The notes under the pieces were generated by a model. The model was not told the DNA's origin and did no database searches. It was given only the letters and a program-made list of their open reading frames with translations. Made by a program: the position numbers and the translations under genes. This document shows, in pieces, positions 25,256-48,050 of a stretch of 64,000 bases of DNA (within the stretch, counting starts at the first letter, position 1; each line of letters begins with the position of its first letter). The stretch is taken from NCBI GenBank assembly GCA_029008005.1, contig JAQXIX010000014.1:1-64000 (forward strand), given 5' to 3'. This DNA comes from Bacillota bacterium (GTDB lineage: Bacteria; Bacillota; Clostridia; Peptostreptococcales; Anaerovoracaceae).

Positions 25256-25863
25256 TTTTTCCCTTCCTGTTTGTTTTCTTTTATTTTATCTATTACTTTC
25301 CTCAGCGCCTCTTCCTGTTCTGCCTTTTCTATTTCCCTCGCAGCGGCAATCGCGCTTCTGATATTGAGAACCAGGATGATTCCTATCGGAATAAGTATAA
25401 GCGGAATGAAAATCAGCGGATTCGCCGAAAGCCTCATTATTATCCCGGCTCCCGGAGAAACAAACACTACCTTTCCGATAACATCTTTGTCGAGAGCAGT
25501 GTATTCATCCTCAAAACCGTTAGCGTCACCTTTAGTTCTGAACTCATACCGGCCGTTGATGCTGATTATTTCCGATGTCCTGTGAGTCACGATAATGTCC
25601 TTTATTGATGGATCCTGAGAGTAAAAGGCTATGACATCACCCTTCCTGACTTCCTCAGGCTCTGCTTCCTTCACCAGCACGAGAGAGTTAACGGGAATCT
25701 CCGGCTCCATACTTCCGGAAACTACACACATTAATGAATACCCTCCGATTTTCGGAACATCCCCCGACTTAGTGAAAACTACCGAAATCATTATTACTGC
25801 AGCAAGTATTATTACGGCAACAGACACAACATCGATGACTATTGTAACTGCTTTTCTAATCAT
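25252..25863 (-). CDS. Signal peptidase I, ER/SipW-type (Ser/His)
   Basis: VVSGSMEPEIPVNSLVLV ... VRKGDVIAFYS ... IIVTHR ... TKGDAN; His rather than Lys. Confidence 0.85.
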   Translation of the reverse strand: MIRKAVTIVIDVVSVAVIILAAVIMISVVFTKSGDVPKIGGYSLMCVVSGSMEPEIPVNSLVLVKEAEPEEVRKGDVIAFYSQDPSIKDIIVTHRTSEIISINGRYEFRTKGDANGFEDEYTALDKDVIGKVVFVSPGAGIIMRLSANPLIFIPLILIPIGIILVLNIRSAIAAAREIEKAEQEEALRKVIDKIKENKQEGKK

Positions 25864-29154: not shown

Positions 29155-29810
29155 TATCTGTTATCCTCTTCCTTTGCTTTCTCTGCTTTTGCAGCAGCCA
29201 GAGCACGCTCCGCTTCAATCAGTTTTTTCGTCTGTTCTTCAATTGCCTCAAGGGTTGATGCTTTCTTTAATTCAATAACTACTGAAATAAGGTGATACAG
29301 CTGATATGCCAGAAGAAGAAGCATCGGCAAGGCTATTACAAGCATAAATCCCAGGTTGCTCGACAGGAAAGTCATGAATTTGCCAAAACCCGGCAGGGTG
29401 GCCACCTGTCTGCCGACAATATCGCCGTCTGTAATAATGTGGTCGTCTGCGGCAATATTGTTGTCACCCTTCGTAACGTAACTTCTGTATCCGTTGCCCT
29501 CGTCATTTATCTCAGCAATTCTGTGTGTGTTCAGAGCAAGCTCATTATTTATAACAGTATGGAATGTGATTACATCACCTTCACGGAGCTCTGCCGTGTC
29601 ACACTTTTTAATAATAATCATGTCACCCCGGCCAAATGCGGGAACCATGGAATCCGATTCAACAACCATCGGTGTGAACCCTCCTACGCTTGCTACATCT
29701 TTCCCGTCTTTGTTTACAAGAACCGTTATTGAAAACAATACCGCAACAATGATTACAATCCACAATAATATACTGACCGCTATTGTGCCTGCTTTTTTCG
29801 ATGCATTCAT
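29154..29810 (-). CDS. Signal peptidase I, ER/SipW-type (Ser/His)
   Basis: MVVESDSMVPAFGRGDMIII ... REGDVITFHT ... LNTHRI ... TKGDNN; second C-terminal TM. Confidence 0.85.
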   Translation of the reverse strand: MNASKKAGTIAVSILLWIVIIVAVLFSITVLVNKDGKDVASVGGFTPMVVESDSMVPAFGRGDMIIIKKCDTAELREGDVITFHTVINNELALNTHRIAEINDEGNGYRSYVTKGDNNIAADDHIITDGDIVGRQVATLPGFGKFMTFLSSNLGFMLVIALPMLLLLAYQLYHLISVVIELKKASTLEAIEEQTKKLIEAERALAAAKAEKAKEEDNR

Positions 29811-29831: not shown

Positions 29832-30557
29832 TTATTCCTCAATAACTTTACCGTTTTCATCTGTTCCTACGAACCTCATGCTTATGGAGTAGTCGGAACC
29901 CTGTATGTCACTCGTGCAGTTTTCATCCGTTCCTTCGAGCCAGATTCGGACGATAACTTCTTTATCCTTCTCCTGTTCAAGAGAAAACAGCTTCATTTCC
30001 GCAGTTTTACCGGGGTCGTATATATAAGTTCTTCCGTCTGCGGTAAATGATATTCTCATGGCACCGGCCAGCTTCGGATTCTTCGATGTTATCTTCGTTC
30101 CCTGCTTACCGTTCCTTCCGTCTTTGCCGGTCAGATGCACATCCATGTCCGACATTGCCATAAAGTGCAGTCTGAACTCAAGATATGCACCGCTTCGGAC
30201 GCTTACTGCACTTCCGTCTTCAAATCTGAAGTTCTGTCCGTTTCCGGTTGTAACCGGCTCCAGCGGTACTGTCTTCATGTTGAATCCGTGTTCTGCCTGT
30301 ATCCTGCCGGCTATCTGCTGAAATTGAAGAGTTTCTGTATATTCCTCGAATTCATCATGGCTGTCTAAATCAAACCTCAGTGAGGTTCCTGCTGTCACAT
30401 CCATATTCATGGAATCGACTCTTCCCCTGTCTGCTATTGTGAACCATGCCACCGTTGCCGCAGTCATTGCGACAAATGCCAGCAGAAGAAGCATCAGCGA
30501 AATATACAGCCTCTGCCTTCGCTTGTGTTTTTCTCTGATTTCTTTATATCTGTTCAA
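29832..30557 (-). CDS. Membrane-tethered secreted protein (SipW-cognate-like TM, WLEG motif)
   Basis: TM ending ATVAWF; C-terminal VIVRIWLEGTDENCTSDIQ...SMRFVG. Confidence 0.7.
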   Translation of the reverse strand: MNRYKEIREKHKRRQRLYISLMLLLLAFVAMTAATVAWFTIADRGRVDSMNMDVTAGTSLRFDLDSHDEFEEYTETLQFQQIAGRIQAEHGFNMKTVPLEPVTTGNGQNFRFEDGSAVSVRSGAYLEFRLHFMAMSDMDVHLTGKDGRNGKQGTKITSKNPKLAGAMRISFTADGRTYIYDPGKTAEMKLFSLEQEKDKEVIVRIWLEGTDENCTSDIQGSDYSISMRFVGTDENGKVIEE

Positions 30558-30568
30558 TCAAGTCACCT

Positions 30569-31438
30569 TTATTCCCTAACTGTCCCGAAAAAAGCCAGAT
30601 GCATTGACGATGCATCGAAGGCGGCTGCGTCCGAACAGTCCGGATCGCATCCTTCAAGATAAAAGTACACGTCTGCCTGATAAATCTTATTCATTTCCAT
30701 TGTCATAAGCGGCTTCTCAGGCAGCGTATATCCTCCTCCCGATTCCGAAACCGCCCTGCTGTCTGCCGGCAGTGCCGGATCATCTGCAGCTTTGATTGTT
30801 CCCGAAGAACCGTCAAGCACCTTCCCGCTGCCCAGTATCTGCCCGTTGATTTTCGTGTTATACACCTGTTCACCGGCAGGATTGTTTTTATCGCTAAGGT
30901 AAAATATCGTTCCCGATTCTTTACCGTCCCCGGAAATAATCAGCCCGAGTCTCGATGCATTGAGAATATTTTGCTCTGCCTTTACCAGATTTCCGCCTGA
31001 ATCTCCCGTTCTGTCGAGATAGAGGTCCATGCGCAGATTACCGCTGTCTCCTCCGGTCTTTGCTCTCATGTATATTCTTCCATGATAAATGCTGTCTTCA
31101 TTTCTTACGACACTGAAGTTACCGGCAATACCGCCGTCGGTGTGTCTGTTTGTAACAAAGGTCTTGAGATCCGCTGTGGAAACGGGCATAAGTTCCGTCT
31201 TATCGGCACTGTTTACCTGTGTTATCGCCACAGCTTCTTCCGGTGAAAAACTGCTTCCTCCCCGGGAGCTTAACTCAAGTATTACACTTTCATTTCCGGA
31301 TTTCGCCGTTGCTTTCCCCGTATCCACGTTCCTGTTGTGCTGAAACCAGGCGAAGGTTGCCAGTACAAGGGCGAATAATGCCACTGTTATGCTTATGACC
31401 GCAAACCAGCTAATCTTTAATCTGTCTGCTTTATTCAT
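30569..31438 (-). CDS. Membrane-tethered secreted protein (SipW-cognate-like TM, YLEG motif)
   Basis: TM ending ATFAWF; C-terminal ADVYFYLEGCDPDCSDAAAF...LAFFG. Confidence 0.7.
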   Translation of the reverse strand: MNKADRLKISWFAVISITVALFALVLATFAWFQHNRNVDTGKATAKSGNESVILELSSRGGSSFSPEEAVAITQVNSADKTELMPVSTADLKTFVTNRHTDGGIAGNFSVVRNEDSIYHGRIYMRAKTGGDSGNLRMDLYLDRTGDSGGNLVKAEQNILNASRLGLIISGDGKESGTIFYLSDKNNPAGEQVYNTKINGQILGSGKVLDGSSGTIKAADDPALPADSRAVSESGGGYTLPEKPLMTMEMNKIYQADVYFYLEGCDPDCSDAAAFDASSMHLAFFGTVRE

Positions 31439-32271
31439 TTTTTATCTCCCCTGCCTATACCTGCGAATCCGAACTGCAGCGTAATGTTTTTATTCTGTAC
31501 GGGATTGCTGCAGTTATCATCACAGCCTTCAAGGTACAGCCAGTATTCAACGACTGCAATTTCGTCAGCCTTTAATGTACATATTCTCTTTTTTCCTGCT
31601 TTGGGATTTTTATCATTTCCGCCGGCATAATAACCGTCGAAGTGCGCAGCGGGGTCAGTAACATAGGAAGCCTCTCCGCCGCTGCCGACAGAGGAAACCA
31701 CCAGGTTTTTCCCGGGTACCGTTCTTCTCGATGACGCACCCTTTGTGTCACCCATACTGTCCAGCTTGAAAATCCGTACACTTTCACCGTTTCTTGTTCC
31801 GATACGCATTCCGAGTCTGCCGGCACTGAGCATCTGCGCATCTCCCGTTATTTTCATTTTATTTCTGTCAAGGTATACATCACAGTCTCCGTCGCTTTTA
31901 AGATACAGAAATCCGTGTATTGCCTTTGAATTAATATTCTTTGTGTCATCGGCATAAAGAACCGCTATTCCGTTGGCATCCTGCATAGTCGTTCTGTAGA
32001 ATCTCGACAGATTCCCTGTGCTGACCGGTGACAGGACATCAAGCTCTTTATTGTAGCTTAAGGGACAGCTTGTGTCATATTTACCCTTTCGGGAATCGGA
32101 AATGAGCAGATTCATTTCCCCGTCACTTACAGTGCTTCCCATAGGTTCAACATTTGTCGCATTGTTAAATGAAAACCACGCAAAAGCCGCTGCCCCGGCA
32201 GCCAGGACAATAAGAACCATCCACAGTGCCATAATCACCAGTTGTCTCTTTGCTCTTTTCTTCTCGTTCAT
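31435..32271 (-). CDS. Membrane-tethered secreted protein (SipW-cognate-like TM, YLEG motif)
   Basis: TM ending AAFAWF; C-terminal VEYWLYLEGCDDNCSNPVQNKNITLQFGF. Confidence 0.7.
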   Translation of the reverse strand: MNEKKRAKRQLVIMALWMVLIVLAAGAAAFAWFSFNNATNVEPMGSTVSDGEMNLLISDSRKGKYDTSCPLSYNKELDVLSPVSTGNLSRFYRTTMQDANGIAVLYADDTKNINSKAIHGFLYLKSDGDCDVYLDRNKMKITGDAQMLSAGRLGMRIGTRNGESVRIFKLDSMGDTKGASSRRTVPGKNLVVSSVGSGGEASYVTDPAAHFDGYYAGGNDKNPKAGKKRICTLKADEIAVVEYWLYLEGCDDNCSNPVQNKNITLQFGFAGIGRGDKK

Positions 32272-32280
32272 ACCTGTCTC

Positions 32281-33153
32281 CTAGCGGCTGCATGCGAACG
32301 AAATCGCTATATTTTCAAGCCGTGAATCTGCCAGATTAGATGTGCAGTCACTGTCACAGCCCTCCAGCCAGATATACACATCAATCTGAACCGGTGTCCC
32401 CATCTTGCCGTCATTTCCCGAAAGTGTAACAATCTTTCTGGAATCAGGCCTCAATGTTGTTTCTCCGCTTTCGCTGCTGTAAATGCAGTAATTACTTTCT
32501 GTCAGCTGCCTGAAGGGTACTGTTGCCCCGTCTGTTCTGCTGCTGTCGATTACATATCCGTCGCGGCCGGTGGCCGTATTGTACATTGCCATCGGATTAT
32601 TGCCGCTGCTGATTTCGAAAATGAACTCTTCACTGACAAGCTTGTCTTTCCCTGCCTGATGTACTGCCAGTCCCACGCGTACTGCCGTAGACACAGGTCT
32701 GCTGCTGTCAGCATCCGTAAACCCTATATCCGAAACATACACGTCGGCTTCATCGGAGTTCGACCTTAAGTAAAGAGATGTACTGTAATAATCCGAAGAC
32801 TTTGCCGGCTCGAATGTCTTGGCATACAAATCATTCTTCGAATTGCCTCTGCGCTCGAAATCCTTTGCTCTCTGAAAGCCTCCCGTTATCCTGTCCGTCG
32901 ATACAGGGGTCAGCTTGCCTATGTACGTTTTCATTTCAACAGCCGAACTGTATCCTCGGTCATACTCTTTGCTTATGTATACCGATTCACCGGTGCCTGC
33001 CGCCATATTTACATCAGTGGTGAACTCTCTTGTGTTGTTCACATACCATGCAAAGGCCGCAATCCCGGCTGCTGCCAGTACAATCAGAAACAGTATCAGC
33101 GTTCTGAAAAATTTTCTGTTCAGTTGTCTCCTTGATTTTCTCTTTGAATCCAA
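32281..33153 (-). CDS. Membrane-tethered secreted protein (SipW-cognate-like TM, WLEG motif)
   Basis: TM ending AAFAWY; C-terminal IDVYIWLEGCDSDCTSNLADSRLENIAISFACS. Confidence 0.7.
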   Translation of the reverse strand: MDSKRKSRRQLNRKFFRTLILFLIVLAAAGIAAFAWYVNNTREFTTDVNMAAGTGESVYISKEYDRGYSSAVEMKTYIGKLTPVSTDRITGGFQRAKDFERRGNSKNDLYAKTFEPAKSSDYYSTSLYLRSNSDEADVYVSDIGFTDADSSRPVSTAVRVGLAVHQAGKDKLVSEEFIFEISSGNNPMAMYNTATGRDGYVIDSSRTDGATVPFRQLTESNYCIYSSESGETTLRPDSRKIVTLSGNDGKMGTPVQIDVYIWLEGCDSDCTSNLADSRLENIAISFACSR

Positions 33154-33162
33154 TTTGTCGCC

Positions 33163-34077
33163 TTATAATCTCTTTACTTTTATACCTAAATCCGTCCAGA
33201 ATAACGGACGATTGTCACCTTTTCTGTAAAACTGAATAATCTGTGTTCCTATGTCAAAATGAAGCTCCGCTTCTCCTTTGCTGTTGTCAATACCATGTTC
33301 CGCAGCGAATAACGGATCAATCTCAACATAGTCTGTATCCCACGAGAGCTTAACGTCAGAGGCATTGCCCCCTACGGTAATCTCGTAATTAAATGCATCG
33401 TAATCGTCTATATTGCCTGACTCCATCAGCCTGCCCTCAACACTTGGCAATGCAACCTGTGAGCGAATGCTTGGTGCCAGCACGGCTGCAAGACAGTATA
33501 TGTTCGTCCCCGTGCTTCCTCCGGATGTTGCTTTTACTGTTGCTACTGCATTAAACTGAGCGTAGTCAAGATCTCTTCCCGGCATTGTAACCACATATTT
33601 ATGTGTCGTGCTCTTCCTTCCTTTTATGGTCACGTTGCCCGATGTGAAGGAAGCACTCGAATTTCCTGCCGTCATTGTTCTCCCGTCAACCTTGTAGCCA
33701 GAATAATCGTTACCCTGAGCCCCTGTCGCCACAAGCTCCAGTTCATATGTGACATCGCTTGGATTGACCAGGTTATCGTCCTGTTTATGATGGTTGTAAA
33801 TTGTTATTGTGAAACTGACTGTCCCGTCACTGTTATCAAACTCTATGGAGTTTCTCGCTATGGATGTCGGATAACTTCGATATCCGTAGAGATAATTGGA
33901 GTTAAACAGAGACTCGTTTTCGTTTGTGGATGCAACTGCCTTCATGTTGCTTACCGAAATATATGCAGCCATTGCCTGCCATACACCTGCTGCTATGGCA
34001 ATGCAGCACAGGACTGCAATAATAAGATGTTTCCTGTTTATCTTCAAATCCTTGCTCCTGTTACTTGTTCTTCGCAA
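33163..34077 (-). CDS. Secreted/membrane-tethered protein of the same cluster, unknown function
   Basis: Single N-terminal TM (LIIAVLCCIAIAAGVWQAMAAY), beta-rich ectodomain, overlaps neighbour by 17 nt. Confidence 0.6.
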   Translation of the reverse strand: MRRTSNRSKDLKINRKHLIIAVLCCIAIAAGVWQAMAAYISVSNMKAVASTNENESLFNSNYLYGYRSYPTSIARNSIEFDNSDGTVSFTITIYNHHKQDDNLVNPSDVTYELELVATGAQGNDYSGYKVDGRTMTAGNSSASFTSGNVTIKGRKSTTHKYVVTMPGRDLDYAQFNAVATVKATSGGSTGTNIYCLAAVLAPSIRSQVALPSVEGRLMESGNIDDYDAFNYEITVGGNASDVKLSWDTDYVEIDPLFAAEHGIDNSKGEAELHFDIGTQIIQFYRKGDNRPLFWTDLGIKVKRL

Positions 34078-34759
34078 TAAGATATATTATATCGGTTTCT
34101 TTAACTCTTTCGGTCCAGCTCAGCACCAGGACGTAATTTCCCACGTAATTGCCCTCACTGTTCTGTTTAGGTGCCGTTATCTCCCGGTACCAGTAAAGGG
34201 GCTCCGAATTTTCCTGAACTTTTGAATACTCTCCGAATGTTGCTGAATGATACTCTCCGGATTCCTCTGCCAGCTTGTCCTCTACCTGCTTCTTATTCAG
34301 ATAGCCGTCATCAGAGAACATGTTGGAAATCTTTTCCCAGGTGTACGGATTTCCCTTTGAATCGATTCCCTTGATGATATTGTCTCCCGAAGCATCCTGT
34401 AATCTCTCTGCTGCTTCATATAGTTTGATATCCAGATCATCAATATTAGTTGTATGAGCCAGAAACAGATCGAATTTTTCCGAAGGACTGCTGACACAGA
34501 AAGGTCTCTCAAGAGTAACCACTCCGTCCTTTACTTCCGATTTATCGTAGCTCAAATCAATCTGTTCCATATATGTCTCGTTCGGACCCAGAATCGATAT
34601 TTCCGCAGGAGCTTTAACACGGCCTACTGTTGATGCCGACAGGCCTCCGAAAAACCAAGCGAGAGCCAGTCCGATAATAAGAATCAGTAAAGCAAAGGCC
34701 GCGAAACCCATCAATAGCTCATTCTTATATTTTTCATACCAGCGCAGCTGTTCCGCCAT
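34061..34759 (-). CDS. Membrane-tethered protein of the same cluster, unknown function
   Basis: N-terminal TM ending LALAWFFGG; tightly coupled with neighbours. Confidence 0.6.
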   Translation of the reverse strand: MAEQLRWYEKYKNELLMGFAAFALLILIIGLALAWFFGGLSASTVGRVKAPAEISILGPNETYMEQIDLSYDKSEVKDGVVTLERPFCVSSPSEKFDLFLAHTTNIDDLDIKLYEAAERLQDASGDNIIKGIDSKGNPYTWEKISNMFSDDGYLNKKQVEDKLAEESGEYHSATFGEYSKVQENSEPLYWYREITAPKQNSEGNYVGNYVLVLSWTERVKETDIIYLIAKNK

Positions 34760-35643
34760 TATTTTCCTCCTGTTTCATTGGTCCTGAACCTTACCTGAAC
34801 GAACTCTATTTCTTCTCCGATCAGCTGATCCGCATTATTATATCCTTCAGTGCAGATATCATAGTCGCTGCCGCTCATGTTTGAACTGATATCATCAACT
34901 CCCGATACATCACCGGCAAAATACCTGCTGCTGTTTTTCATCATGTCGTCGATCAGTTCACTGTATCCATCGTCGCTTTCGGATTCGAATACATTTCTGT
35001 AATATGTTCCTCCGCCGGTATATACATAGTTGTGAAACTGCTGAGGCCATACCCAGTAAACAGTTCTGGTTACATCTACTGTAGTTCTGGAGTTTTCATC
35101 CATAAAGGCAGATGCCGGTATGGTAAAACCGTAGTTACCGCTGTCATCCGGTCCGATCCAGCCGTGATAGTATCTTCCCGTCTTTCCCGTGAAGAACAGA
35201 ATGTGACCTGTTATATATCTGTTCATATTGGCGTAGTCAGTATTACTGTCATTTCTCATCTTTAGGTTTGTCTCAATTGTCACTTCTATATTTCCGAGAT
35301 CCTCGGCAATAGGACTCACCGTGAATGTCAGTTCTCCGAAGGAACCGGGAGCAAGCTTCGAAGTTTCTGCAGTGTTCTTGAAATTGCTTTCTGAATTGAC
35401 ATACATGGAATCGGAAGTATCAAAGTCGAAGTCAGCATCGTGACTTCCTCTCTCCCATATGCCAACCTTATCGCCTTCTTTGCCTGTAACAATGGCATAT
35501 CTGCTGCTCAGAGCAGAAATCAGCGAGGATTCTCCTTCCACTCTGTTGTTCAGTACAAACCATGCCAGGACAGCAAGGATGAACACTGCCAGCGAAAGAA
35601 TCACAAGCAGCACTGATTTAATTAGTTTTTTTCTGCTTTTCAC
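34759..35643 (-). CDS. Membrane-tethered secreted protein of the same cluster, unknown function
   Basis: N-terminal TM ending AVLAWFVLNN; 1 nt overlap with next gene. Confidence 0.6.
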   Translation of the reverse strand: MKSRKKLIKSVLLVILSLAVFILAVLAWFVLNNRVEGESSLISALSSRYAIVTGKEGDKVGIWERGSHDADFDFDTSDSMYVNSESNFKNTAETSKLAPGSFGELTFTVSPIAEDLGNIEVTIETNLKMRNDSNTDYANMNRYITGHILFFTGKTGRYYHGWIGPDDSGNYGFTIPASAFMDENSRTTVDVTRTVYWVWPQQFHNYVYTGGGTYYRNVFESESDDGYSELIDDMMKNSSRYFAGDVSGVDDISSNMSGSDYDICTEGYNNADQLIGEEIEFVQVRFRTNETGGK

Positions 35644-35644
35644 C

Positions 35645-38600
35645 TTATTGTCCTACTTTCGTATTAATCATTCCGTCTGTTGAAATTCTCGTAAGTGTGT
35701 ACGTTATATAGTCTGAATGGTCATCGAGGGCTCCCGTATCGCTGTCGACCCCGTTCACTCTGCTGTTAAACGGATAGTCAATCCTCGTATCGCCTTTGTA
35801 CATCTCCGCTGTCAGAACAAGTCTGTAATTTGAGTAGAAATGATTGAGGTTTTCCACATTATCTGTTCTGACTTCAACAGGTATGCTTACAGTAAACCTC
35901 CTGTTTGTAGGGCTTACTGTATCCGCCGTTGCGAAGCCTCCGTCTGAACTTTTCCTGTCAGTCCATCTGAAGCAACTGTTACCATTTGAGTCAGCAGCTG
36001 AAGAAGGTGTTCCCAGCTGTGCACAGCTTACATTAATGTATTTGTCCGGATTGCTGATTATTTCATATTCTCCCTGAGGGTTCTTTCTCTTCATAAGTCT
36101 GAGAGAATATACGATTCTGTCAGACTGATCCAGCTTTTCATCTGCATTAATTACATTTTCAAGAGAATATACACCTGTGGTTGCTATATTTCCGTCAGCC
36201 GTATCAAGCTCCGAACAGTTGATTCCCAGCTGCTTAATGTCATTAGCCGAATATGTGATATCCGACGAACCCCATTCTGCACGGTAGTATCCCACTATTC
36301 CTGTTGCAGACGCCGAAGTGCTGCTGTAACTGAGGCTGTCTTCTCTTACGGCAAGTACAGCCTTGTAATTCAGCTTAGTGTATTCTGTCTTCCCATTATT
36401 CATGGAACCCATAATGGACTGTCTGAAAGCAGGGTCTGACATATGCAGATCCATGCCGGTGGTAATGGTGAATCCCGTACCTCCTGAATCTGCCGCTATC
36501 TTTCTTATTCCCGAAAGGTCTATGGCATTTCCGCTGCTGTCTTTAAGAACAAGGCTCAGCTCACCTTTATTCTCGGCAGTGCTTTCCCACCTTACCTGTG
36601 ATACGGCCTTTTTTTCATCAGAAGCCGTCCAGCTGCCATCGCTGTATGTATAATACTTGTCACCTGCCATTACATAGAAGTATGCGGTTCCCTCGGTTCC
36701 CGTGGCGAAATAGCTGGCAGTCTGACCTGACGTATCATACTGGTGCAGATTAATATCCAGCTTGTAGTAAAGCCTGTCATTGCTGTTATATGTCTGGCTG
36801 CTGTTGAATGTAACAGTATCGGTTACGTCGATATCAATATATCTTCCCGATTCTCCCTCTCTCTTGACAGGTATCATTTTATTACCTGTTCCCGCTTTAT
36901 CCTTGTCGCTGCTGTTGTCGGCAAGACTCTGGGTATATCCGCTGAGGAAGCTGTATGTACTGGCAGTATTCTGGTGGCTGTCTTTTGTTTTATCAGGTCT
37001 CAAAGTGTAGTTGAGATTTACCGGAACGTTTCCGGAACTTACACTGCCGCTCAGATATCCGTTGGCACTCAGATTCTCTGTAGTTTCATTCAGAGGAACA
37101 TTGATAACCAGATAGAAGCTTTCCTCAGGCTGTATTTCTCTGCCGTATACATCTCTTCCGACAGCCAGTGTGTACTTTTCTGCATCCGTATCATTGTCAC
37201 CTGCAAGTCTGTACTTTTTACCGTCCTTGTCCATTGCTGAAGCTTCTGATATATCTGCTTCCGTGCATTCAACCCATCTGCCGTCAGAGGATTTATATGC
37301 CTGAACCTGCATCAGGCTGCTCATCCATCTGTTACTGTATGACTTACCGTCACTGTCTTTGAAGGTGCTCAGGGAAACGGACTCTTCTCCGTCGTGAATG
37401 GCTGTGTACACCCTTCCCGTTTCGCAGTCAACCAGGGACAGCTTAGTTCCCTCAGGCAATCTGCCGTTAATAAACTGTATGGACTTATCCGCAGCCATCA
37501 TGCTTCCGCCTGCTGCAAGATAGGAATCCCAGCCATACTCTGTATCCTGACCGTATGCATTGTTATATCTGTAGGTAAGCAGTGCCGTAACAGGGTTTCC
37601 GAAGCTCTCAAGCACATGGGCATTTTCTCCCAGTGACATATATTCACTCTTTTTGAAAACTGTTCCGTAATTGAGTGTGGCTGTGAAATCCACCTCGAGA
37701 ATACGGCGAACCAGCACAGGCACCTGAACTTTGTATTCTCCTCCTGCTTCTCTGAAGGTTACTGTCAGGAGGGAGAACCTGCTTCTGTCATTGTCGTATT
37801 CTGTGGTGGCTCTGATTTTCATATCTTTAGTGCCGTTTTTGTTTACCATAACAGATGGCCTGCTTCCTGCCGCCTTCACGTATGAACCACTATTGCCGTC
37901 CCACTCAAATACAGTGATTTCTGCCTTTACATGAGCGATATCGGAATCCTGTTCATCGTTTAGGGCCAGTGCAGAAGCATACCCGCCGTTTGTAATTATG
38001 TTCAGATACTCCTCAACTCCCGAAGTGTCACCTCCCGAAACCTTCAGAACGGGTATATCCTTCGATGATTTCAGAGAATCTGCGTCATTGTTTCTGTTAA
38101 ATGTCGATACCTGCCTTTCGAAATCAAATTCTGCGGACTCACCGTAGGAGTACTTGAATCTTCTGCTGACGGCAGTTGCCTTCGACTCATCAACAATTGC
38201 CTTTGCAGTAACGACAGGTTCTCCGTCGATTATCTTTCCGACGCCGTCTCCGTACAGATACTTTTCTTCCGGTATCTTAACTGTGTACTCACTGACAGGC
38301 GAAGTGGCAGGGTAAGGCTCTGTCTGATCGGCTCCCAGTAGAGCCTTTGATTTTTCTTCATCAGAAAGTCCGGCGGCTGAAGTGTTTGTATAATCCGCAA
38401 AGGCAATATACGACAATCTGCTGTCTGAAACATTAGTCCCGTACAGGGCCTCTACAGAACCGCCTTCCATTAATCTTATACTCAGTCCTGCAATTCTTGT
38501 ATATGCATTCTGAGGCAGATTTCCGGCAACAAGTCCCGGCGTCCTGCATGCCTCAAGATTGTTATCCCTGAGAAGAATATTGCATCCCTCAATGCCGCCG

Positions 38601-41600
38601 TTGGCTTTGGCGATAAATGACGAGGAGCTTGTTCCCACAAGGGTGTTGTCCGATGCTTCGAAGTTTCTGAATGTGGATTTCATGTCCGCATCCTCTATGG
38701 CACCTATAGCTGCACCGGATGTGAATTCTCTGATTGCGGATACTCCCTCAGTGAAGCTGCAGCCTGTCACTTTGGCGTCCGTAACTGTGAGGCGTGCATT
38801 TTCCGAAGTATTGTTTCTCAGGTTACCTATTATTCCTCCCGAGTATGTGTCAGTAAGAGACAGTTCAACATTATCCACTGCGATATTGTTAAATGTAAGC
38901 TCTGCTGCTGAGCTGTTATTTCCTGTTCTTCCCAGAATTCCGCCGGTTCTGTCTGCCTTTATTACCGGCTTTAAGTCACCTGTTCCCTTAATGTCCGTGT
39001 CAAATACACGGACGCTGTCCGCAACCTCTCCTGCGCAGCCTCCTGCGGCAGATTTCGCCGTAACATTAACATTGCTTAAGGTCACAGGTTTGAGGGCAGC
39101 GGAATCCGTAGTATAGTATGCAGTTGTACCACCATTCTTTAATGCCTTGTAGTCAGGGTCGTTAACTGCCAGCTGACCGGTCTGACAGCCTATTATTCCT
39201 CCGCACATACTGCCTGAATTAAGTCCTGTAATCTTGCTGTTCGAGCCTGCAGCTGCTCCGCCGGTTTTCATTTCAATACCGTTCTTTGTTGAGGCTATGG
39301 TTGAGCTGGTGTAGGAATTACATCTTCCAATGAAACCGCCTGCGTATGCTGCTGCAGTAATATCCACACCTGAATAGCTGCAGTCTGTCAGGTGATAGGA
39401 CAACCTGATACCACTGGAGTTGCTGCCTATTGTGTGTCTGGAATTATCGTAGTTCCTGGTTTTGTATCCTATCTGTCCTGCGACCGAACCTGCGGAATAA
39501 GTGCTGTACAGATTTGTATTATTCCTGACGTTAATGTTCTCAAAGAGAGCCGTAGGGTAATTTGTCGAGGTGCTTACCGGCACCAGGTTTCCGACAATTC
39601 CTCCTACACCTGCATTCGCACCGTTGTCAGCCTTAACCTCCTTGCCCTCTGGGTCGTAGTAGTGAATAGCAATACTCGAGTCTGTCAAAGTCAGATTCCT
39701 GAAGGCATTGTAACCGTTGTTTTTCAGCGCATCCTCCGCTGAAGAACTTGTGTAGTACCAGTATGCTGTGGAGAACAGTGCTCCTGCACCGGCACAGTTG
39801 TAGTTGTCTGAGCTGTACTCTCTGACATTCATATCAACGCTTATTGTTGCGTTGTTTCCGTCCACGCATATTAGATACGGTACAGTTCTGTCTATATGGT
39901 CATTCAGAGAAGAAGCCAGCGCCGCCGCATTTGACTTGTACCGGCCCGTCATTCCCACATAGGCTGAGCCGTAGCCTCTCATGTCAAAATCTACACCCTC
40001 TTTCAGTATCAGCTTCATCAGAGATACGTTGGATGCGCAGACAAACTCAGTCTGTTTTGTGGCATACTTCCTCACAAGGTATGGAGAGTTGACAAATTCT
40101 GTTGTATTAACAGCGTTGATGTTTGCATCTGTACCCTTTCCGAAATGGGATGGATCCTCATCGCTTAGTCCCGGTGCATACATGTCATCTGCCAGAGACG
40201 TTACGCGGTCGGCTTTGCCGGCTTCACTTCCGGGCTGACCCACATATTCGTAGGAAGCGTTTCTCACCTTCCCCAGCTTCTCGTTACCGAATCTGTATCC
40301 GTCAGTAACGGCGGCATTCTTTCCGTAATATGGATTAGTGCCTGAGAGAGCTCCCGTACTCTCGCTGATATGTCCTGCACCTGCTCCGCTCTGAATAACT
40401 GCTGAAAGCAGCATAAGTCCCTGAGGAGAATTAACAGTTGTCTCTACAGCTTTTACCCTGGCAATGGTGCCGGTACTGATGCTCTGAATTTCTGTTCCGT
40501 TGGCGTCAGTTTCCTTAGCTATCCTGTTAATCTTGTAATTCTTATCTGTGTTTTCTACATTACATCCTTCGGAAAAAGCATATCCCGATATCACTCGTCC
40601 GATAATGTGATTTGTATAGAGACTCTTGTATGCATCCTCGGCAGTGCTTAAATCAGTTCCCTCAGCAAACCATCCGTCACGGAAGCCTTTGTATTCATCT
40701 CCCGTTCCCATGTTTCTGAAAATGACTCCTCCGCCTGAAACAGCTCCCACATATCCTCCTGTCGGTATCAGGTTTTTGCTTTTGTCATAGGAAAGACTGA
40801 AGACATCTTCCCCTTCTGTCTGTGCCGTTACCTGAACATTATCGATAATATTGTCTCCCCCGAGAATAAGTCCGATTACTCCGCCGAAGAAGCTCTTAGG
40901 TGAAAAATCATCGCTGCTCATGGCTTCATAGGCTATGGCATTTGCTCCGCTGTACTTTAAAACCAGATCCTTAACAACAGAGCCGTAGCTGTAAGGTATG
41001 AAGCCCTTTATGGATGACGCTTTTATCGTCACTGTGTTCACTTCGCCGCTGCTTCCCAGCCGTCCCGTTACCACACCTCTGAACGGATTGTTGGTATTTC
41101 CGAGACCTGGGAAGGTATCATCCAGCTCAATGTTTTCGGCAATGTAATAGTATGCACTCTGGATATACCTGTGCATCGTATTGTTTACAATAGTATCCCC
41201 ATTTTGGCTGACCCAGCTGTCGCCGCTCTTCTGATATGTAACATGTTCGGACACGCTTCCATCTCCAAGCCTGCTGCATTCCTTATCCTGCTCTCTGGCA
41301 ATTGTAATGCTCAGTCCCGCACTGCCGTTAGGGTTGTTGATAAAATCAGCAACAGAGCACAGCTGCTGTGAGCTGCGTATTACATATGGATCTGAATATG
41401 TGCCGCAGCCTTCGGTTATGTCGCTGCTCTTCCTGTTAACGGCGATTTCATGGTATCCTGTATCGGAATTGAATGCCGTATACACATAAGGCAGATAGTC
41501 TGCAAAGGCAGGATTATCTGTATTTGCTTCCTGCTGCCCGTCCGGGGTTTTGACGAGTTCTTCTTTGTCAAAATACCATAACTGCCGGCCCTCATATTCC

Positions 41601-44600
41601 ACTGAGCCGTCGATTTCTTTACCGTATGTAATCATGTCGGCAGCCCTGTCAGCAGTTGTAAAGTTGTATGTGCCGCTGCCTACTCCGCCGTTTACGCTGT
41701 ATCTGAAGCTATGCAGAAGTGAAGCCCTGGTGAATACTGAATTATCTGCCGCCGGCAGAAGAATCCTGTTAAAGGAAACGGAAACCTGTGTGGCATTCTC
41801 CGAGCCTATTGTACCTATCAGGCTTGTTGCCGCCGGCTTCCTGCCTTCAGCCTCCTGATATGTAAGTTCATCTACGATTATTGCAGAATAACTGTCGGAC
41901 CTGTTAATCAGCAGCGGACCATAAGATGTCCCCGTATCCACTCCATTTACTGCGAGCCCGTTAAGTGTGCAGTTCTTTAGGCTAACCGTATACATGTTTG
42001 AAATCAGAGTATATTCAAAACCGGATACGGTGCCGCTTATGAGGGCTCCCGATGTTCCTCCGTAAATGCCTGTGGTTCCTCTAAGTTCCATACCGCTGCA
42101 GGCAATTTTATAGTTTCCGAGATTTGAATTGTTTTTGCTTCTTGTTCCGAAATCACGGAAAAGACCGCAGTGCATAGCATAGTGCTGTGTTCCGGTACTC
42201 GTCCTCTTATTGCTGTTTGATGTTTCCGATGACTCGATTTTATCGTTGCAGAAGGTAATCCGCGCATTTCTGATGTCTATGTTCCTGTTGTTTACAGTTA
42301 CGGGATAATAGCTGAAGCCTGTCATGTCAAGCTCTGCCATGCTGTCGCCGCCGCTTCCGATTGTTGTCCTGTTTCCCGTTATCCCGGCGTCGTTATAATC
42401 AAAGTGTTTCTTGATATTGGTTCCGGCATATGTGTTGACACTCCAAACAAGCAGCTCCTCAGGGGTGTCAATAACAGAGTTGTCGGCGTTATCGCCATAT
42501 CCCAGACTGTCAATGGCAGTATCCAGGTTGTAGTAATACCTGGTCATATCGTTTGTCGTCTTCGATTTTCCGTAGGCTGTCCTGTTAACGTAAGTGTTGA
42601 TGCCGCTTCCGTCCATTACTACCTTTTCGCCGGAAGTTTTCAGGGATACAACACCGTAAACATCGTTTGTGAAAGAACCTGCGCCGGTCATGGTGAAGGC
42701 TACAAATTCGTCAAAAACTGCCGGTGAACAACTGATATCTATACTGTCCTCCGAAATAGGGTATGCATCATCCCAGTCTGCAATAACGCTGAGATAAAGG
42801 GCTCCTGCAGAGGAGTTTACGCCTCCTATCATCTCCCCACCGTTGGCACCTCTGCATACGAGTATTCCGAAGGAATTCCGGATTCCCGAGAATTTGAGTC
42901 CCTCCGGATTGATGCCTTTGCTTCCGATTGTCCACTTGCCGTCGGCTCTGTATACAAGTCCTCCTGCAGTGTTTGTATCTGCGTTTAACTGTGTTTTCAC
43001 ATCAGTCGTATCGTTTACATACAATCCATATTTTCCTTCGTCTCCGATGAATCTCACATCTGTGTCGGACCACATGTATCCCAGCAAACCTCCTGTGGCG
43101 CTGCCGGCCTTGAGGCTTACCCTGTGTCCGTCCATGGCTGTATTTCTGAATTCTATTCTGACGCTGTCTGATCTGACTCTCTTCTTGTTTGCGTCAATCT
43201 CCGAAGGCTGAATAATGCCTATATATCCTCCGGCAAGAGATGTGGTATATGTATTGCTGCTGTTGCTGATGTCGGCGCTGAGAACCGCTCCGTCTCCGTA
43301 AACTTGTGCCGGGCACTTGCCGCTTATGTACCCAATGGCTCCGCCTGTAATATCAACGCCTTTGCCGGTCACAGCATCTATTGCTATTGTCGGCGCCAGC
43401 TTCGTTCCCTGAGTGAATCTGACAGTATTTTCCGCAGGTTCATCCAGCATCCCGAAGGCTCCTCCCACATAGCAGACCTTCTCGTTCGTTTTATAGTTAA
43501 TAGACGATTTGAATGTGCATCCGCATATCGTCTTGTCTCCGCCTGTTGAGCATGCGGAATAAGCACCCGCCGCAATTCCGGCATCAAGTGCTTCGAACTT
43601 TATTGTTCCGGCAACTGTCAGCTTATCTGCGCTGCCGTTTGAAACTGAGAAAAGCCCCAGTCTGTTGTGTCTGTAGATTATTCCGTTTCCGACTGTTGAG
43701 TCATCCGCTTCCTTCTCGGTCAAAAGACCTTTGCACATTCCGTAGGTTTCTCCCACGGCAAGACGTATTTCGTGGCTGTTTCCCTGAATACTGCCTGTAA
43801 ATGCAGGGGCAGTTTCACTGTCTGCCTTGCTGTCTCTTGTAATTCCCGTTACACCTGTACCTGCCAGGTTTATGTCTCCTTCCAGGCTGATAGTGTCATC
43901 CAGAAGGCTTTCCCAGTTGGTTGTGTCTATATTGTTAAATCCGCTGAAGTGACCTTTTGTCTGAATCGTAACGGCAAGACGCGCCAGGTCATCCTTATCC
44001 GATATGCTTACCGTACCGTCGGAATAGTCTTTTTTGACGGTGAAGCCCTCCGGTGCTATGAGATTTTCTGAAAGTCCGCCGCTGTGAAGCCTGTACACCT
44101 GTCCGTAGTTGCCGATATCGTCAAAGGCGGCGCTGCCGTTTCTTATGTATTTCCAGGTGTCATCGCTACCGCTGCCTTCTGCAAATATCAGGGCACTTTC
44201 CTGCCCTCCCGCCAACTGACCGATTCTGCTGCCTGATGAGGCATATGTCACTTCCGAAAGATCTGTTTTTCCTCTAAGTCTGATGGCACTTCCTTCATCT
44301 ACAAAACCTGCAACCCCGCCGCCGGCTTTGATTGTTCCTGTAGTGATTTTGACCGTTCCTGCTGAAGACAGTACGCTGCCTTTACTTACCACTGCCGCCA
44401 GGCCTCCGTAATAGCCTGTTGACACGTTGGATATTCCTCCGCTGACAGTTTTAACCTCAAGGTTATTTACTCTGAGTATTCCGGAATTGTTATTGTCTCC
44501 AACCATGGCTGCTATTCCCGAATTGTAAAGACATTTTCCTGCATCGTCGGCTTCTACAACCATGTTCTTCACCAGCATGCTGCCGCTGCCAGTTATCTTC

Positions 44601-46141
44601 CCCACTGCTCCGCCGTATGCCTTAACATCTGCAGTATCCCTGAGCTGAGACTTAATTGTTACACTGTCATCGGGATTCAGCGAAAGAGTTCCTGCTCCGT
44701 TTATTGTTACGGAGCCTGCGAATCCGCCGACAATTCCCTCTGAGCTGCCTCCTGCCAGCACAGGTACCTTACTTAAATCGAATCCTTCCATTGGGAAAAG
44801 CATTTCTGAAGAAGTCTCAAAAACTCCAAAAAGTCCACCTGCATATTGTGAACTGATTTTCTCATCTCCCGTCAGTGTGGCACTTATTGCGCCCACCGTT
44901 TTAGATGGTGTTATCGTTTTGTTGTCCGCAACGGTGAATACAGTGTCATCGGCACTTCCTGCCAATCCCCCGGAAATATAGCCTCTGACTGCAGCCGATG
45001 AAAGATCTGCTGTTTCATTCACCTGTATTACTGCATCTTCTGTGCATCCTATAAGTCCGCCTGCAGATTCACGCGCCATTATTGTAATCTTGTCAGCCCG
45101 GCTGCAGTCGATTCCGGAATTAATTACTGCAGTCGTTTCTCTGCCGTCGCCGGGACTTCTGTATATTTTCCCGACAAGTAATCCTGCATTGGCCGTAAGA
45201 GATGTTACATCAACCTCTCCGTATACAAGCCTGTTAAATGTCAGTTCCAGTTTGCCGTCTCTAAAGGTATTTACGATTATTCCCGAGTTGCCTTCCTGAC
45301 TGATATTTACTAAATCCGAAGTTCCGTAGCTTACTTCGAGGTTCAGGTCCCCATTTACCTCTCCCAATGCGGGAGCATTCAAAGTCGTTATCTTAGTTGA
45401 TAAATTGTTTTCAGGTGTAATATCAAGCTTCAGCCTGCTTCCCGCATCTGCAGCCGCTGCTGTTACATGAGACGCGAAAATTCCGTCACAGTTTTCCTCC
45501 GACTTCCATTTCAGCTTGTATTTATATGTTTTACCGCTTTCCAGTGTGACGGAGTTAAACAGCGGTCTCGAAAGGGCTACAACGCTGTCGTTCAGATCCA
45601 GTTCTCCCCTGAAGCTCACATCCGAGCTTCCAAGTCCCCTGTATTCCAAAGTGCTTGAATCCAGAGTCACCGCACCTCTAAGATCCGCCTCACCCGTAAC
45701 ATTGAATTTAATAAATGCGTTTTCATAGAGCTGCGGATTGCTGTTCGAAAGAATAATCAGTGATCTGCTCGGGTCATTCATTACTATGTTTGTTACGGTG
45801 CCGTCGGCGCCGATCGTAACTGATGCTTTATCTCCGGACTCCATGGTCTCCTTTAATGCCTGTACGTCAGAAGTAAAATCCCCTGACGTTCTCGTCTGCC
45901 GGTCTGCGGAGGGTTCTTCCTCACCCTGAGTTTCCGCAGGCTGTTCCGGTTCCTGTTCTTCTGTTACGGTTTCGCCGCCTGCCTGCTCCTCAACAACCTG
46001 TGTTTCCGTTTCGCCTTCTGCCCCGAAGGATACAGACGTTGCAAAAGGCACAGCAAAAGAGAGCACAATCACAATAAAGAGAATTGATGCTGCCGAAAGG
46101 ACTCTATTCATTTTTGAAAAAATCTGTTCCTGTTTCTTCAT
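35645..46141 (-). CDS. Giant secreted repeat protein (about 3,500 aa, GLUG-like solenoid), adhesin/matrix candidate
   Basis: Single uninterrupted ORF (open to 46198); signal peptide VLSAASILFIVIVLSFAVPFATSVSFGAEGE; many GG(L/A/F)xGxxxxG repeats such as GGLIGCTEDAV, GGLAGSADDTV, GGFAGSVTING; start codon uncertain. Confidence 0.8.
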   Translation of the reverse strand: MKKQEQIFSKMNRVLSAASILFIVIVLSFAVPFATSVSFGAEGETETQVVEEQAGGETVTEEQEPEQPAETQGEEEPSADRQTRTSGDFTSDVQALKETMESGDKASVTIGADGTVTNIVMNDPSRSLIILSNSNPQLYENAFIKFNVTGEADLRGAVTLDSSTLEYRGLGSSDVSFRGELDLNDSVVALSRPLFNSVTLESGKTYKYKLKWKSEENCDGIFASHVTAAAADAGSRLKLDITPENNLSTKITTLNAPALGEVNGDLNLEVSYGTSDLVNISQEGNSGIIVNTFRDGKLELTFNRLVYGEVDVTSLTANAGLLVGKIYRSPGDGRETTAVINSGIDCSRADKITIMARESAGGLIGCTEDAVIQVNETADLSSAAVRGYISGGLAGSADDTVFTVADNKTITPSKTVGAISATLTGDEKISSQYAGGLFGVFETSSEMLFPMEGFDLSKVPVLAGGSSEGIVGGFAGSVTINGAGTLSLNPDDSVTIKSQLRDTADVKAYGGAVGKITGSGSMLVKNMVVEADDAGKCLYNSGIAAMVGDNNNSGILRVNNLEVKTVSGGISNVSTGYYGGLAAVVSKGSVLSSAGTVKITTGTIKAGGGVAGFVDEGSAIRLRGKTDLSEVTYASSGSRIGQLAGGQESALIFAEGSGSDDTWKYIRNGSAAFDDIGNYGQVYRLHSGGLSENLIAPEGFTVKKDYSDGTVSISDKDDLARLAVTIQTKGHFSGFNNIDTTNWESLLDDTISLEGDINLAGTGVTGITRDSKADSETAPAFTGSIQGNSHEIRLAVGETYGMCKGLLTEKEADDSTVGNGIIYRHNRLGLFSVSNGSADKLTVAGTIKFEALDAGIAAGAYSACSTGGDKTICGCTFKSSINYKTNEKVCYVGGAFGMLDEPAENTVRFTQGTKLAPTIAIDAVTGKGVDITGGAIGYISGKCPAQVYGDGAVLSADISNSSNTYTTSLAGGYIGIIQPSEIDANKKRVRSDSVRIEFRNTAMDGHRVSLKAGSATGGLLGYMWSDTDVRFIGDEGKYGLYVNDTTDVKTQLNADTNTAGGLVYRADGKWTIGSKGINPEGLKFSGIRNSFGILVCRGANGGEMIGGVNSSAGALYLSVIADWDDAYPISEDSIDISCSPAVFDEFVAFTMTGAGSFTNDVYGVVSLKTSGEKVVMDGSGINTYVNRTAYGKSKTTNDMTRYYYNLDTAIDSLGYGDNADNSVIDTPEELLVWSVNTYAGTNIKKHFDYNDAGITGNRTTIGSGGDSMAELDMTGFSYYPVTVNNRNIDIRNARITFCNDKIESSETSNSNKRTSTGTQHYAMHCGLFRDFGTRSKNNSNLGNYKIACSGMELRGTTGIYGGTSGALISGTVSGFEYTLISNMYTVSLKNCTLNGLAVNGVDTGTSYGPLLINRSDSYSAIIVDELTYQEAEGRKPAATSLIGTIGSENATQVSVSFNRILLPAADNSVFTRASLLHSFRYSVNGGVGSGTYNFTTADRAADMITYGKEIDGSVEYEGRQLWYFDKEELVKTPDGQQEANTDNPAFADYLPYVYTAFNSDTGYHEIAVNRKSSDITEGCGTYSDPYVIRSSQQLCSVADFINNPNGSAGLSITIAREQDKECSRLGDGSVSEHVTYQKSGDSWVSQNGDTIVNNTMHRYIQSAYYYIAENIELDDTFPGLGNTNNPFRGVVTGRLGSSGEVNTVTIKASSIKGFIPYSYGSVVKDLVLKYSGANAIAYEAMSSDDFSPKSFFGGVIGLILGGDNIIDNVQVTAQTEGEDVFSLSYDKSKNLIPTGGYVGAVSGGGVIFRNMGTGDEYKGFRDGWFAEGTDLSTAEDAYKSLYTNHIIGRVISGYAFSEGCNVENTDKNYKINRIAKETDANGTEIQSISTGTIARVKAVETTVNSPQGLMLLSAVIQSGAGAGHISESTGALSGTNPYYGKNAAVTDGYRFGNEKLGKVRNASYEYVGQPGSEAGKADRVTSLADDMYAPGLSDEDPSHFGKGTDANINAVNTTEFVNSPYLVRKYATKQTEFVCASNVSLMKLILKEGVDFDMRGYGSAYVGMTGRYKSNAAALASSLNDHIDRTVPYLICVDGNNATISVDMNVREYSSDNYNCAGAGALFSTAYWYYTSSSAEDALKNNGYNAFRNLTLTDSSIAIHYYDPEGKEVKADNGANAGVGGIVGNLVPVSTSTNYPTALFENINVRNNTNLYSTYSAGSVAGQIGYKTRNYDNSRHTIGSNSSGIRLSYHLTDCSYSGVDITAAAYAGGFIGRCNSYTSSTIASTKNGIEMKTGGAAAGSNSKITGLNSGSMCGGIIGCQTGQLAVNDPDYKALKNGGTTAYYTTDSAALKPVTLSNVNVTAKSAAGGCAGEVADSVRVFDTDIKGTGDLKPVIKADRTGGILGRTGNNSSAAELTFNNIAVDNVELSLTDTYSGGIIGNLRNNTSENARLTVTDAKVTGCSFTEGVSAIREFTSGAAIGAIEDADMKSTFRNFEASDNTLVGTSSSSFIAKANGGIEGCNILLRDNNLEACRTPGLVAGNLPQNAYTRIAGLSIRLMEGGSVEALYGTNVSDSRLSYIAFADYTNTSAAGLSDEEKSKALLGADQTEPYPATSPVSEYTVKIPEEKYLYGDGVGKIIDGEPVVTAKAIVDESKATAVSRRFKYSYGESAEFDFERQVSTFNRNNDADSLKSSKDIPVLKVSGGDTSGVEEYLNIITNGGYASALALNDEQDSDIAHVKAEITVFEWDGNSGSYVKAAGSRPSVMVNKNGTKDMKIRATTEYDNDRSRFSLLTVTFREAGGEYKVQVPVLVRRILEVDFTATLNYGTVFKKSEYMSLGENAHVLESFGNPVTALLTYRYNNAYGQDTEYGWDSYLAAGGSMMAADKSIQFINGRLPEGTKLSLVDCETGRVYTAIHDGEESVSLSTFKDSDGKSYSNRWMSSLMQVQAYKSSDGRWVECTEADISEASAMDKDGKKYRLAGDNDTDAEKYTLAVGRDVYGREIQPEESFYLVINVPLNETTENLSANGYLSGSVSSGNVPVNLNYTLRPDKTKDSHQNTASTYSFLSGYTQSLADNSSDKDKAGTGNKMIPVKREGESGRYIDIDVTDTVTFNSSQTYNSNDRLYYKLDINLHQYDTSGQTASYFATGTEGTAYFYVMAGDKYYTYSDGSWTASDEKKAVSQVRWESTAENKGELSLVLKDSSGNAIDLSGIRKIAADSGGTGFTITTGMDLHMSDPAFRQSIMGSMNNGKTEYTKLNYKAVLAVREDSLSYSSTSASATGIVGYYRAEWGSSDITYSANDIKQLGINCSELDTADGNIATTGVYSLENVINADEKLDQSDRIVYSLRLMKRKNPQGEYEIISNPDKYINVSCAQLGTPSSAADSNGNSCFRWTDRKSSDGGFATADTVSPTNRRFTVSIPVEVRTDNVENLNHFYSNYRLVLTAEMYKGDTRIDYPFNSRVNGVDSDTGALDDHSDYITYTLTRISTDGMINTKVGQ

Positions 46142-46236
46142 GTCCCTTATTTCTTTTGCTGCTTTACTGCCGTAAAAGCATCTCAAAAAACACATCAAAA
46201 GATAGAAGCTTTATCCCTTCTACCCTTTGAAATGTT

Positions 46237-46256
46237 CCCCGCATGAAGATGCGGGG
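46237..46256 (-). promoter_or_regulatory. GC-rich hairpin between the subunit gene and the giant protein gene (attenuator or 3'-stabiliser candidate)
   Basis: Perfect CCCCGCAT-GAAG-ATGCGGGG, no strong T-run after it on the minus strand. Confidence 0.6.
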
Positions 46257-46289
46257 ATATGAATTATGCTGATGGCATTCTGTAATGTT

Positions 46290-47066
46290 TTATTTAAACT
46301 CTGTAGGAGTTGCTTCGAAAGTTACTGTAACACCGCAATCCTTCAGATTTTCAAGGTTAGTTGTGTATACATTACTGTCAGCGCCGTCATAGTATACATA
46401 TACTTTTACAGTCGCATCTTTACCTTTAGTGATGCCGCTTTCTTGAATGATGCCGTCTGCAGTACTGCTGGTCTTGTGGCTTCCGCTCTCGATACCTGCA
46501 TTGCTCCAGACAGTCCATTCTGAACCGCAAGTAACAAGAACACGCATTGCACCCTCTAACTGAGAGTTTGTGGTGTTATTTACAGTTACGCCGGTAACCT
46601 TCAGATTAGTAAAAGTACCGTCATATGTACCTGTACCGATATAGAAGGTATTGGCTAATGTGTAATCTTTGCTTGCTGCAGTGTCAGGATCTCCTACTGC
46701 AAAACGGGTTCCGCTCTTTTCTGTTCCCGCATCTTTAGCGGAAGCGTACGCAGACTCGAACTGCCAGGTATTGGTATCAACAGTGTTCTTCCACTGTGCC
46801 GGATAAAGCTTGGTATCCGGGCTAAAAGTTTCGCTTGCAGTTGCTGCTGATGTGGACGTTGTCTTTGTTGATCCGGCTGCCGCATTATCAATTACCAGAT
46901 AAGCCGAGTTAGACTGTGCGCTTACCTTTGTGGTGGTTGCTGTTACATTGTTGTTGCTTACGAACCATGCGTAGGTTGCCGTTCCTAAAGCAAGCAGAGT
47001 CACCAGCAGCATTGCGATGGCTGTCATCATCTGCTTCTTTAATGATTTAGTGTTAGTTTCGTTCAT
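46290..47066 (-). CDS. TasA/CalY (camelysin)-like fibre subunit candidate
   Basis: Strong SD (AAAGGAG) before MNETNTKSLKKQMMTAIAMLLVTLLALGTATYAWFVSNNNVTATTTKVSAQ; low-Cys, Thr/Ser/Ala-rich beta protein of about 259 aa. Confidence 0.65.
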   Translation of the reverse strand: MNETNTKSLKKQMMTAIAMLLVTLLALGTATYAWFVSNNNVTATTTKVSAQSNSAYLVIDNAAAGSTKTTSTSAATASETFSPDTKLYPAQWKNTVDTNTWQFESAYASAKDAGTEKSGTRFAVGDPDTAASKDYTLANTFYIGTGTYDGTFTNLKVTGVTVNNTTNSQLEGAMRVLVTCGSEWTVWSNAGIESGSHKTSSTADGIIQESGITKGKDATVKVYVYYDGADSNVYTTNLENLKDCGVTVTFEATPTEFK

Positions 47067-47090
47067 TTCTTCTTCTCCTTTCACGTTATC

Positions 47091-48050
47091 CTACTGATTT
47101 CTTCTTGTTTCCCACGTGACATTTCTGTTTTTGTAGTAGTCCGGGGCATCGTTTCCGGCTGCGCCGATTGCATCGTCACCGGTCAGGGTATCTCTGATGT
47201 CCTGTATTAACTTTGACAGCAACCCTGTTTTGTTTTCTTCAATGGCGTCAATTCGCATGCTGAATTCCAAGGCTCCGCCTATTATCTTGTCCACACATTC
47301 CGGATCGTCCCCTTCAAGCCATATTGCCACTGTATACTTGTCAACGTTCCCCAGAAGAAAGTCCGGTTCTCTTATCCTGCATACCACTTCATCAGACTTA
47401 AAATTAACACAGCCCTTTTCGGGTTTGCCGTTTTTGCTCGGAGCTGCATATACAACCCGTTCGCCGTTGTGCCACACTGCAACTCTAACAGCTTCTTCCG
47501 CTCCCTTGGCACTTTTATCAAGGGTAATGGTTGCCTCGTAGCCCAAATCTTCCTTGCCTGCGTTTCGCACGAAATAGGTGTACGCCATATAGTCTCTCCC
47601 GTTATGGTCACCCTGAACGGAATCGATATCCTTAGGCAGGTCGTTTATGGAAATATTCGTGGCATTTTCTACGGAGGCGGCTTTAAGCTTCGCCGTAGGA
47701 TTTTCGAATTCACCGGTTTCGCTTATGCTGACGCCTTTGCGAAACATTTCCAGCCTGTCCAGGTTAATCGTGAAGTTTCCCATTTTCTCCTGCATAAAGG
47801 CGAAAATGAACAGTATCATAACGAGTGCTATAAGGCCGTATACAAGCATATGCACTTTGTCAAGCCGCAGTGCATCCCTCGCCATACGCCGTATATTCCT
47901 TCGCGGAACATACATGCTGACAAGGGTATCCTCATCTATTTCTCCGCCGTTTTTCTCTATTAACTCCTGCAGATCCTCAACTCGGATAATCGTCTGCCCG
48001 GATTTAGGCCTGATATTATTCTTTTCTTTTCTGCCGGTCCTTAATTTCAT
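47091..48050 (-). CDS. Single-pass membrane protein with cytosolic N-terminal segment and WLEGDDPEC ectodomain
   Basis: About 70 aa charged N-terminus, TM HMLVYGLIALVMILFIFAFMQ, C-terminal KYTVAIWLEGDDPECVDKIIGGALEFSMRI. Confidence 0.65.
   Translation of the reverse strand: MKLRTGRKEKNNIRPKSGQTIIRVEDLQELIEKNGGEIDEDTLVSMYVPRRNIRRMARDALRLDKVHMLVYGLIALVMILFIFAFMQEKMGNFTINLDRLEMFRKGVSISETGEFENPTAKLKAASVENATNISINDLPKDIDSVQGDHNGRDYMAYTYFVRNAGKEDLGYEATITLDKSAKGAEEAVRVAVWHNGERVVYAAPSKNGKPEKGCVNFKSDEVVCRIREPDFLLGNVDKYTVAIWLEGDDPECVDKIIGGALEFSMRIDAIEENKTGLLSKLIQDIRDTLTGDDAIGAAGNDAPDYYKNRNVTWETRRNQ

Follow-up and report, generated by a model that had tools for sequence, protein, structure and literature searches.

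The six proteins that carry a WLEGxDxxC-like motif in the 64 kb window, by which we mean the whole stretch of DNA analysed, form a paralogous family, and the motif is likely the signature of this family of pilin-like subunits, which would be the exported cargo of a CoCoPALM-type system. We infer that the six proteins are donor-strand pilins with an uncut membrane base. The gene set (Table 1) recurs in many gut bacteria and may encode a hair-like surface fibre of a kind that has been little studied.

Table 1. Genes of the module in the window, with predicted features of their products
Feature	Coordinates	Strand	Remarks
Second SipW-type signal peptidase	25252..25863	-	
McrC-like protein	25856..27565	-	DUF2357 domain and coiled-coil tail
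McrB-type NTPase	27607..29154	-	Two N-terminal membrane helices; Walker A GISGTGKT; Walker B VLDEMN; NxD GTANNDDS
SipW/archaeal-type signal peptidase	29154..29810	-	TIGR02228, above curated cut-off
Pilin-like, slot 4	29832..30557	-	241 aa; WLEGTDENC at 29916-29942; ATVAWF site
Pilin-like, slot 3	30569..31438	-	289 aa; YLEGCDPDC at 30635-30661; ATFAWF site
Pilin-like, slot 2	31435..32271	-	278 aa; YLEGCDDNC at 31510-31536; AFAWF site
Pilin-like, slot 1	32281..33153	-	290 aa; WLEGCDSDC at 32344-32370; AFAWY site
Secreted-type protein without motif, trio last	33163..34077	-	Trio order fixed in 9 loci
Secreted-type protein without motif, trio middle	34061..34759	-	LALAWFF site
Secreted-type protein without motif, trio first	34759..35643	-	LAWF site; match to TasA-like subunit profile over 26 columns only
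Giant repeat-rich protein	35645..46198	-	3517 aa; N-terminal hydrophobic helix
TasA-like subunit	46290..47084	-	264 aa; ATYAWF site; YYDGADSNV at 46368-46394
Anchor subunit	47091..48050	-	319 aa; motif WLEGDDPEC at 47295-47321

All six motif strings, listed by the low-end coordinates of their ORFs, were confirmed, and every one of these ORFs lies on the minus strand. When the window was scanned in six frames for two hydrophobic residues followed by [DE]GxD, exactly six places were found, those of the named proteins. The LEGxDxxC motif is real and far from chance: the corresponding DNA pattern occurs five times in the window, compared with an average of 0.01, and never more than 1, in shuffled sequences. 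Lone matches to this pattern in two genomes of the order sample (G088 and G108, one each) are probably due to chance. Three of the five LEGxDxxC proteins have a CDxxC pair, in agreement with the sequence-only reading.

We compared 151 non-redundant motifs, a set that included 4 spurious antisense matches removed after counting. The Gly is invariant and the following Asp is present in 145/151, but the aromatic start, the E/D and the G were imposed by the search pattern, and independent evidence comes from the later positions alone. The last Cys was found in 135 motifs and the first in 58; both are present in 56, the last only in 79, the first only in 2 and neither in 14. A variant with Ser replacing Asp, W[IL]EGESxxC, occurs in five Ruminococcus-type loci (L059, L067, L071, L080 and L098).

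The motif had been taken to define a paralogous family despite little other similarity and to suggest a common subunit fold. The family relationship is supported by homology that extends past the motif and by the motif Gly, which falls in a single alignment column in 158/158 orthologues. The supposed lack of other similarity was overstated, since profile-profile alignments over 100-240 columns gave a probability of 95-99.9% for 12 of the 15 pairs among the six proteins; the remaining pairs join the anchor to slot 1 (86%), slot 3 (73%) and slot 2 (40%). In a tree of 158 mature sequences, five of the six groups are single clades with support of 0.99-1.0, and the TasA-like group is mixed.

The common fold gains support from the same homology and Gly column, and also from AlphaFold2 models of the slot 4 (pLDDT 86) and TasA-like (pLDDT 77) proteins. 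In both models the motif lies at the end of the penultimate strand, and a loop or short helix connects it to the last strand; the placement is equivalent, whereas non-equivalent positions would have spoken against a shared fold. The N-terminus is of low confidence in both, which fits a free donor strand. Donor-strand filaments ranked first in Foldseek searches, with E values of 5.7e-4 to 2.5e-2 and low TM-scores of 0.25-0.43: the top matches were AbpA (7ueg), the archaeal Saci_0406 thread (7pnb; PMC9715654) and TasA (8aur) for the TasA-like model, and FimA (5lp9 and 6erj) for the slot 4 model. These weak matches between models and known structures suggest that the closest folds are donor-strand pilins. 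The Pfam M73 family (TasA/camelysin, PF12389) matched none of the six proteins, Pfam and NCBIfam together assigned them to no family, and searches of PDB sequences with the slot 4 and TasA-like profiles gave no matches. Profile comparison against 23 M73/TasA sequences was not significant except, weakly, for the anchor (E=0.0015, probability 17%), in whose alignment WLEGDDPEC is placed against TasA QFKDDKTK.

A SipW-type A-W-[F/Y] cleavage site is predicted in five of the six proteins and in nearly all of their orthologues, and the second residue after the predicted cut is aromatic, as described for TasA (PMC10269814). The earlier description of the motif proteins as secreted applies to these five but not to the anchor: its N-terminus is cytoplasmic, a single membrane helix covers residues 68-86, and an A-W-F cleavage site is lacking. 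The anchor has 58 orthologues among the loci examined, and those inspected have the same uncut layout with a membrane helix. It probably keeps this helix as the base of the filament. The TasA-like subunit is the candidate major pilin. Its motif had been called degenerate, and we rejected this reading: its relatives in seven loci (L021, L024, L062, L066, L072, L078 and L082) also have Y-[Y/F/W]-DG without Cys, so that the form is an inherited, conserved clade variant recurring in other genera and not a product of decay. Other TasA-like proteins have WxEGxDxxC.

The genes next to the subunits relate the locus to a known class of systems. The NTPase has McrB homology (E=1.9e-6) and could be aligned to E. 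coli McrB; its two hydrophobic helices are followed by a charged helical stretch, and the NxD motif is present in 80/81 NTPase orthologues. In the McrC-like protein, the DUF2357 match is to PF09823 (E=1.1e-10), the tail weakly resembles coiled-coil families, and no nuclease domain was recognised. The pair is flanked by two SipW-type peptidases here and in most loci with enough flanking sequence. CoCoPALM systems were named in 2024 in a paper that defers their fuller description (PMC11090510, eLife); its passages on them describe an NxD, not NxxD, McrB-type NTPase fused to an FtsB-like membrane and coiled-coil region, a McrC homologue with DUF2357 and a coiled coil, and neighbouring signal peptidases with a predicted part in pilus assembly. 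The literature searched contained no later paper on CoCoPALM. The window shares with these systems, as outlined there, the NxD McrB-type NTPase, the DUF2357 coiled-coil protein and the signal peptidase genes, and our module, with its predicted SipW peptidases, membrane NxD NTPase and coiled-coil DUF2357 protein, appears to fit CoCoPALM. The same passages do not describe exported subunits; the pilin family, its signature, the slot order and the uncut anchor are additions of the present analysis.

Two further sets of genes lie between the slot 1 and TasA-like genes. The trio of SipW-type proteins (33163-35643) resembles the motif family only at the N-terminus where this was tested. The giant protein has no Pfam match and has partial homologues in several related loci; it is possibly a tip or surface adhesin of the module.

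The subunits and the NTPase travel together. Among 292 Clostridia genomes, 12 matched the motif profile, all 12 contained the NTPase, and among the matches listed 11 of them have both on one contig; one genome (G742) has a partial NTPase copy on the motif contig and a full-length copy on another. In three further genomes of this set the NTPase matches were all weaker and incomplete at the N-terminus. With the NTPase as query, more than 530 candidates yielded 80 loci, most of them with motif proteins, in Lachnospiraceae, Ruminococcus (including R. albus and R. flavefaciens), Oscillospiraceae, Erysipelotrichaceae and others. About 20 loci have the fixed order slot1-slot2-slot3-slot4-SipW-NTPase-DUF2357, in which the form of the motif is specific to each slot: Y-x-WLEGCDxDC in slot 1, [W/Y]LYLEGCDxxC in slot 2, YFYLEGCDPDC in slot 3 and [R/H]xWLEGTDxxC in slot 4. 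The form in the anchor is VIW[LM]EG[DEN]DP[ED]C.

Closer to the window organism, the module is rare. Among 100 relatives in its own family, the motif was found in only one other genome (G248), at a syntenic locus with an anchor (45% identical), a TasA-like protein, slot 4, SipW (44%), the NTPase (54%) and the DUF2357 protein (58%, 371 residues). Within the genus, the NTPase is present in 1/49 genomes, being absent from 48/48 congeners. Contamination was judged an unlikely source of the module: the same contig encodes a SecA with 76-88% identity to the SecA of 10/12 congeners, the other two giving short C-terminal matches. As the congeners share SecA but lack the NTPase, gain of the module by transfer or its repeated loss is likelier. 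The module is patchy and, over evolutionary time, probably mobile.

For the likely reading of the family as exported pilin-like subunits, we propose the following mechanism. SipW would cut the five subunits with an A-W-[F/Y] site and free their N-terminal strands, each of which would insert into a neighbouring subunit by donor-strand exchange as in TasA. The uncut anchor would remain embedded in the membrane and serve as base or as first subunit, the TasA-like subunit would form the shaft, and the four fixed-order paralogues would build a specialised portion, for example a tip or adaptor. On the cytoplasmic side, the NTPase and its DUF2357 partner may drive or gate assembly. The roles of tip, shaft and base were guessed from the order of the genes and from the cleavage site. 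More tentatively, the locus could encode a multi-subunit Gram-positive donor-strand pilus that draws the energy for its assembly from a membrane-bound NTPase of McrB type, recruited from restriction systems; we put this no higher than a reasonable possibility.

The six proteins might instead be separate surface or envelope proteins, such as adhesins or matrix proteins, which are processed by SipW and never join in one filament. The slots diverged anciently into distinct clades, Ruminococcus-type loci often have only the anchor beside SipW, and Bacillus SipW also processes proteins of other roles, e.g. TapA (PMC10151520). However, the constant order of the genes and the membrane NTPase that they share argue for one machine, and the nearest folds are those of filament subunits; we regard separate proteins as unlikely.

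Several known donor-strand and SipW-dependent fibres were compared with the proposed pilus. Like the TasA-SipW-TapA system of Bacillus subtilis (PMC9674648, PMC10151520), the window has a SipW-type peptidase and a putative beta-sandwich subunit; the penultimate strand and loop lie at the matching place, with the weak fold match to 8aur, but there is no significant match of sequence families. The tapA-sipW-tasA operon has neither the four to six paralogous subunits of the window system, nor its membrane-anchored subunit that stays uncut, nor its dedicated NTPase. AbpA and the Saci_0406 thread are archaeal, and the passages drawn on here report no McrB-type NTPase for them. The BsaA-SipW pellicle fibres of Clostridium perfringens (PMC7395162) are also a clostridial SipW-dependent extracellular polymer, and the description of their sipW-bsaABCRSD operon, in the part consulted for this comparison, mentions no McrB-type NTPase. 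If assembly is indeed powered by the NTPase, this would provide an energised pathway for a class of fibres otherwise thought to assemble without nucleotide hydrolysis. CoCoPALM was named from its cytoplasmic genes, with pilus assembly guessed from the peptidase; the motif identifies likely pilus subunits, serves as a simple signature for finding more of them and points to the cultured carriers Ruminococcus albus and R. flavefaciens.

The role of the motif Cys may depend on the subunit. In slot 3 of the window all Cys residues are inside the motif, and the CDxxC pair provides the only Cys residues in 12/20 slot 3 proteins. The sole Cys of the slot 4 protein is the motif Cys, and the mature chain of 17/27 slot 4 proteins contains just one Cys, so that no intramolecular disulfide is possible in most of them. 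Slot 2 has five Cys in 14/22 proteins, and 34/39 anchor orthologues have a second one, 38 residues N-terminal to the motif Cys. The pairing Cys differs by subunit type. A disulfide is likely in some subunits, and one with changing partners is plausible, though not inside slot 4 alone. Where a partner exists (the first Cys of CDxxC in slots 1-3 or the conserved second Cys in the anchor), the motif Cys would probably lock the strand end, and the invariant Gly with the near-invariant Glu and Asp may shape the turn there.

Two other uses of the Cys were weighed against this one. The motif Glu/Asp and Cys might coordinate a metal ion and so stabilise the subunit or a subunit interface: Gly is invariant, Glu/Asp and Asp are nearly so and Cys is present in 135/151, with the Glu/Asp and the aromatic start imposed by the search pattern, and the TasA fibre map shows density that is perhaps a cation held by two Asp (PMC9674648). 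Nevertheless, the clade of the TasA-like subunit lacks the Cys yet has the same fold, and a Cys partner that varies with subunit type is a better fit to disulfides; a metal site is doubtful. It is more improbable still that inter-subunit disulfides link slot 4, by its lone Cys, to the odd Cys of slot 2, for although the Cys numbers of these two slots and the disulfide dimers given by TapA constructs with odd Cys numbers (PMC10151520) are in its favour, Cys counts vary from locus to locus.

Several other genes were noted. A PilZ-domain gene (48053-48736) is located immediately upstream of the anchor gene and in the same orientation, a possible link to c-di-GMP. A separate M73-type locus of the same genome (G000:C13, 250-5760; L001, L002) matches PF12389, has another signal peptidase and adjoins a probable sortase-type pilin gene. 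The window also encodes, at 58301-63865, a protein of 1854 aa with beta-helix repeats (PF18889).
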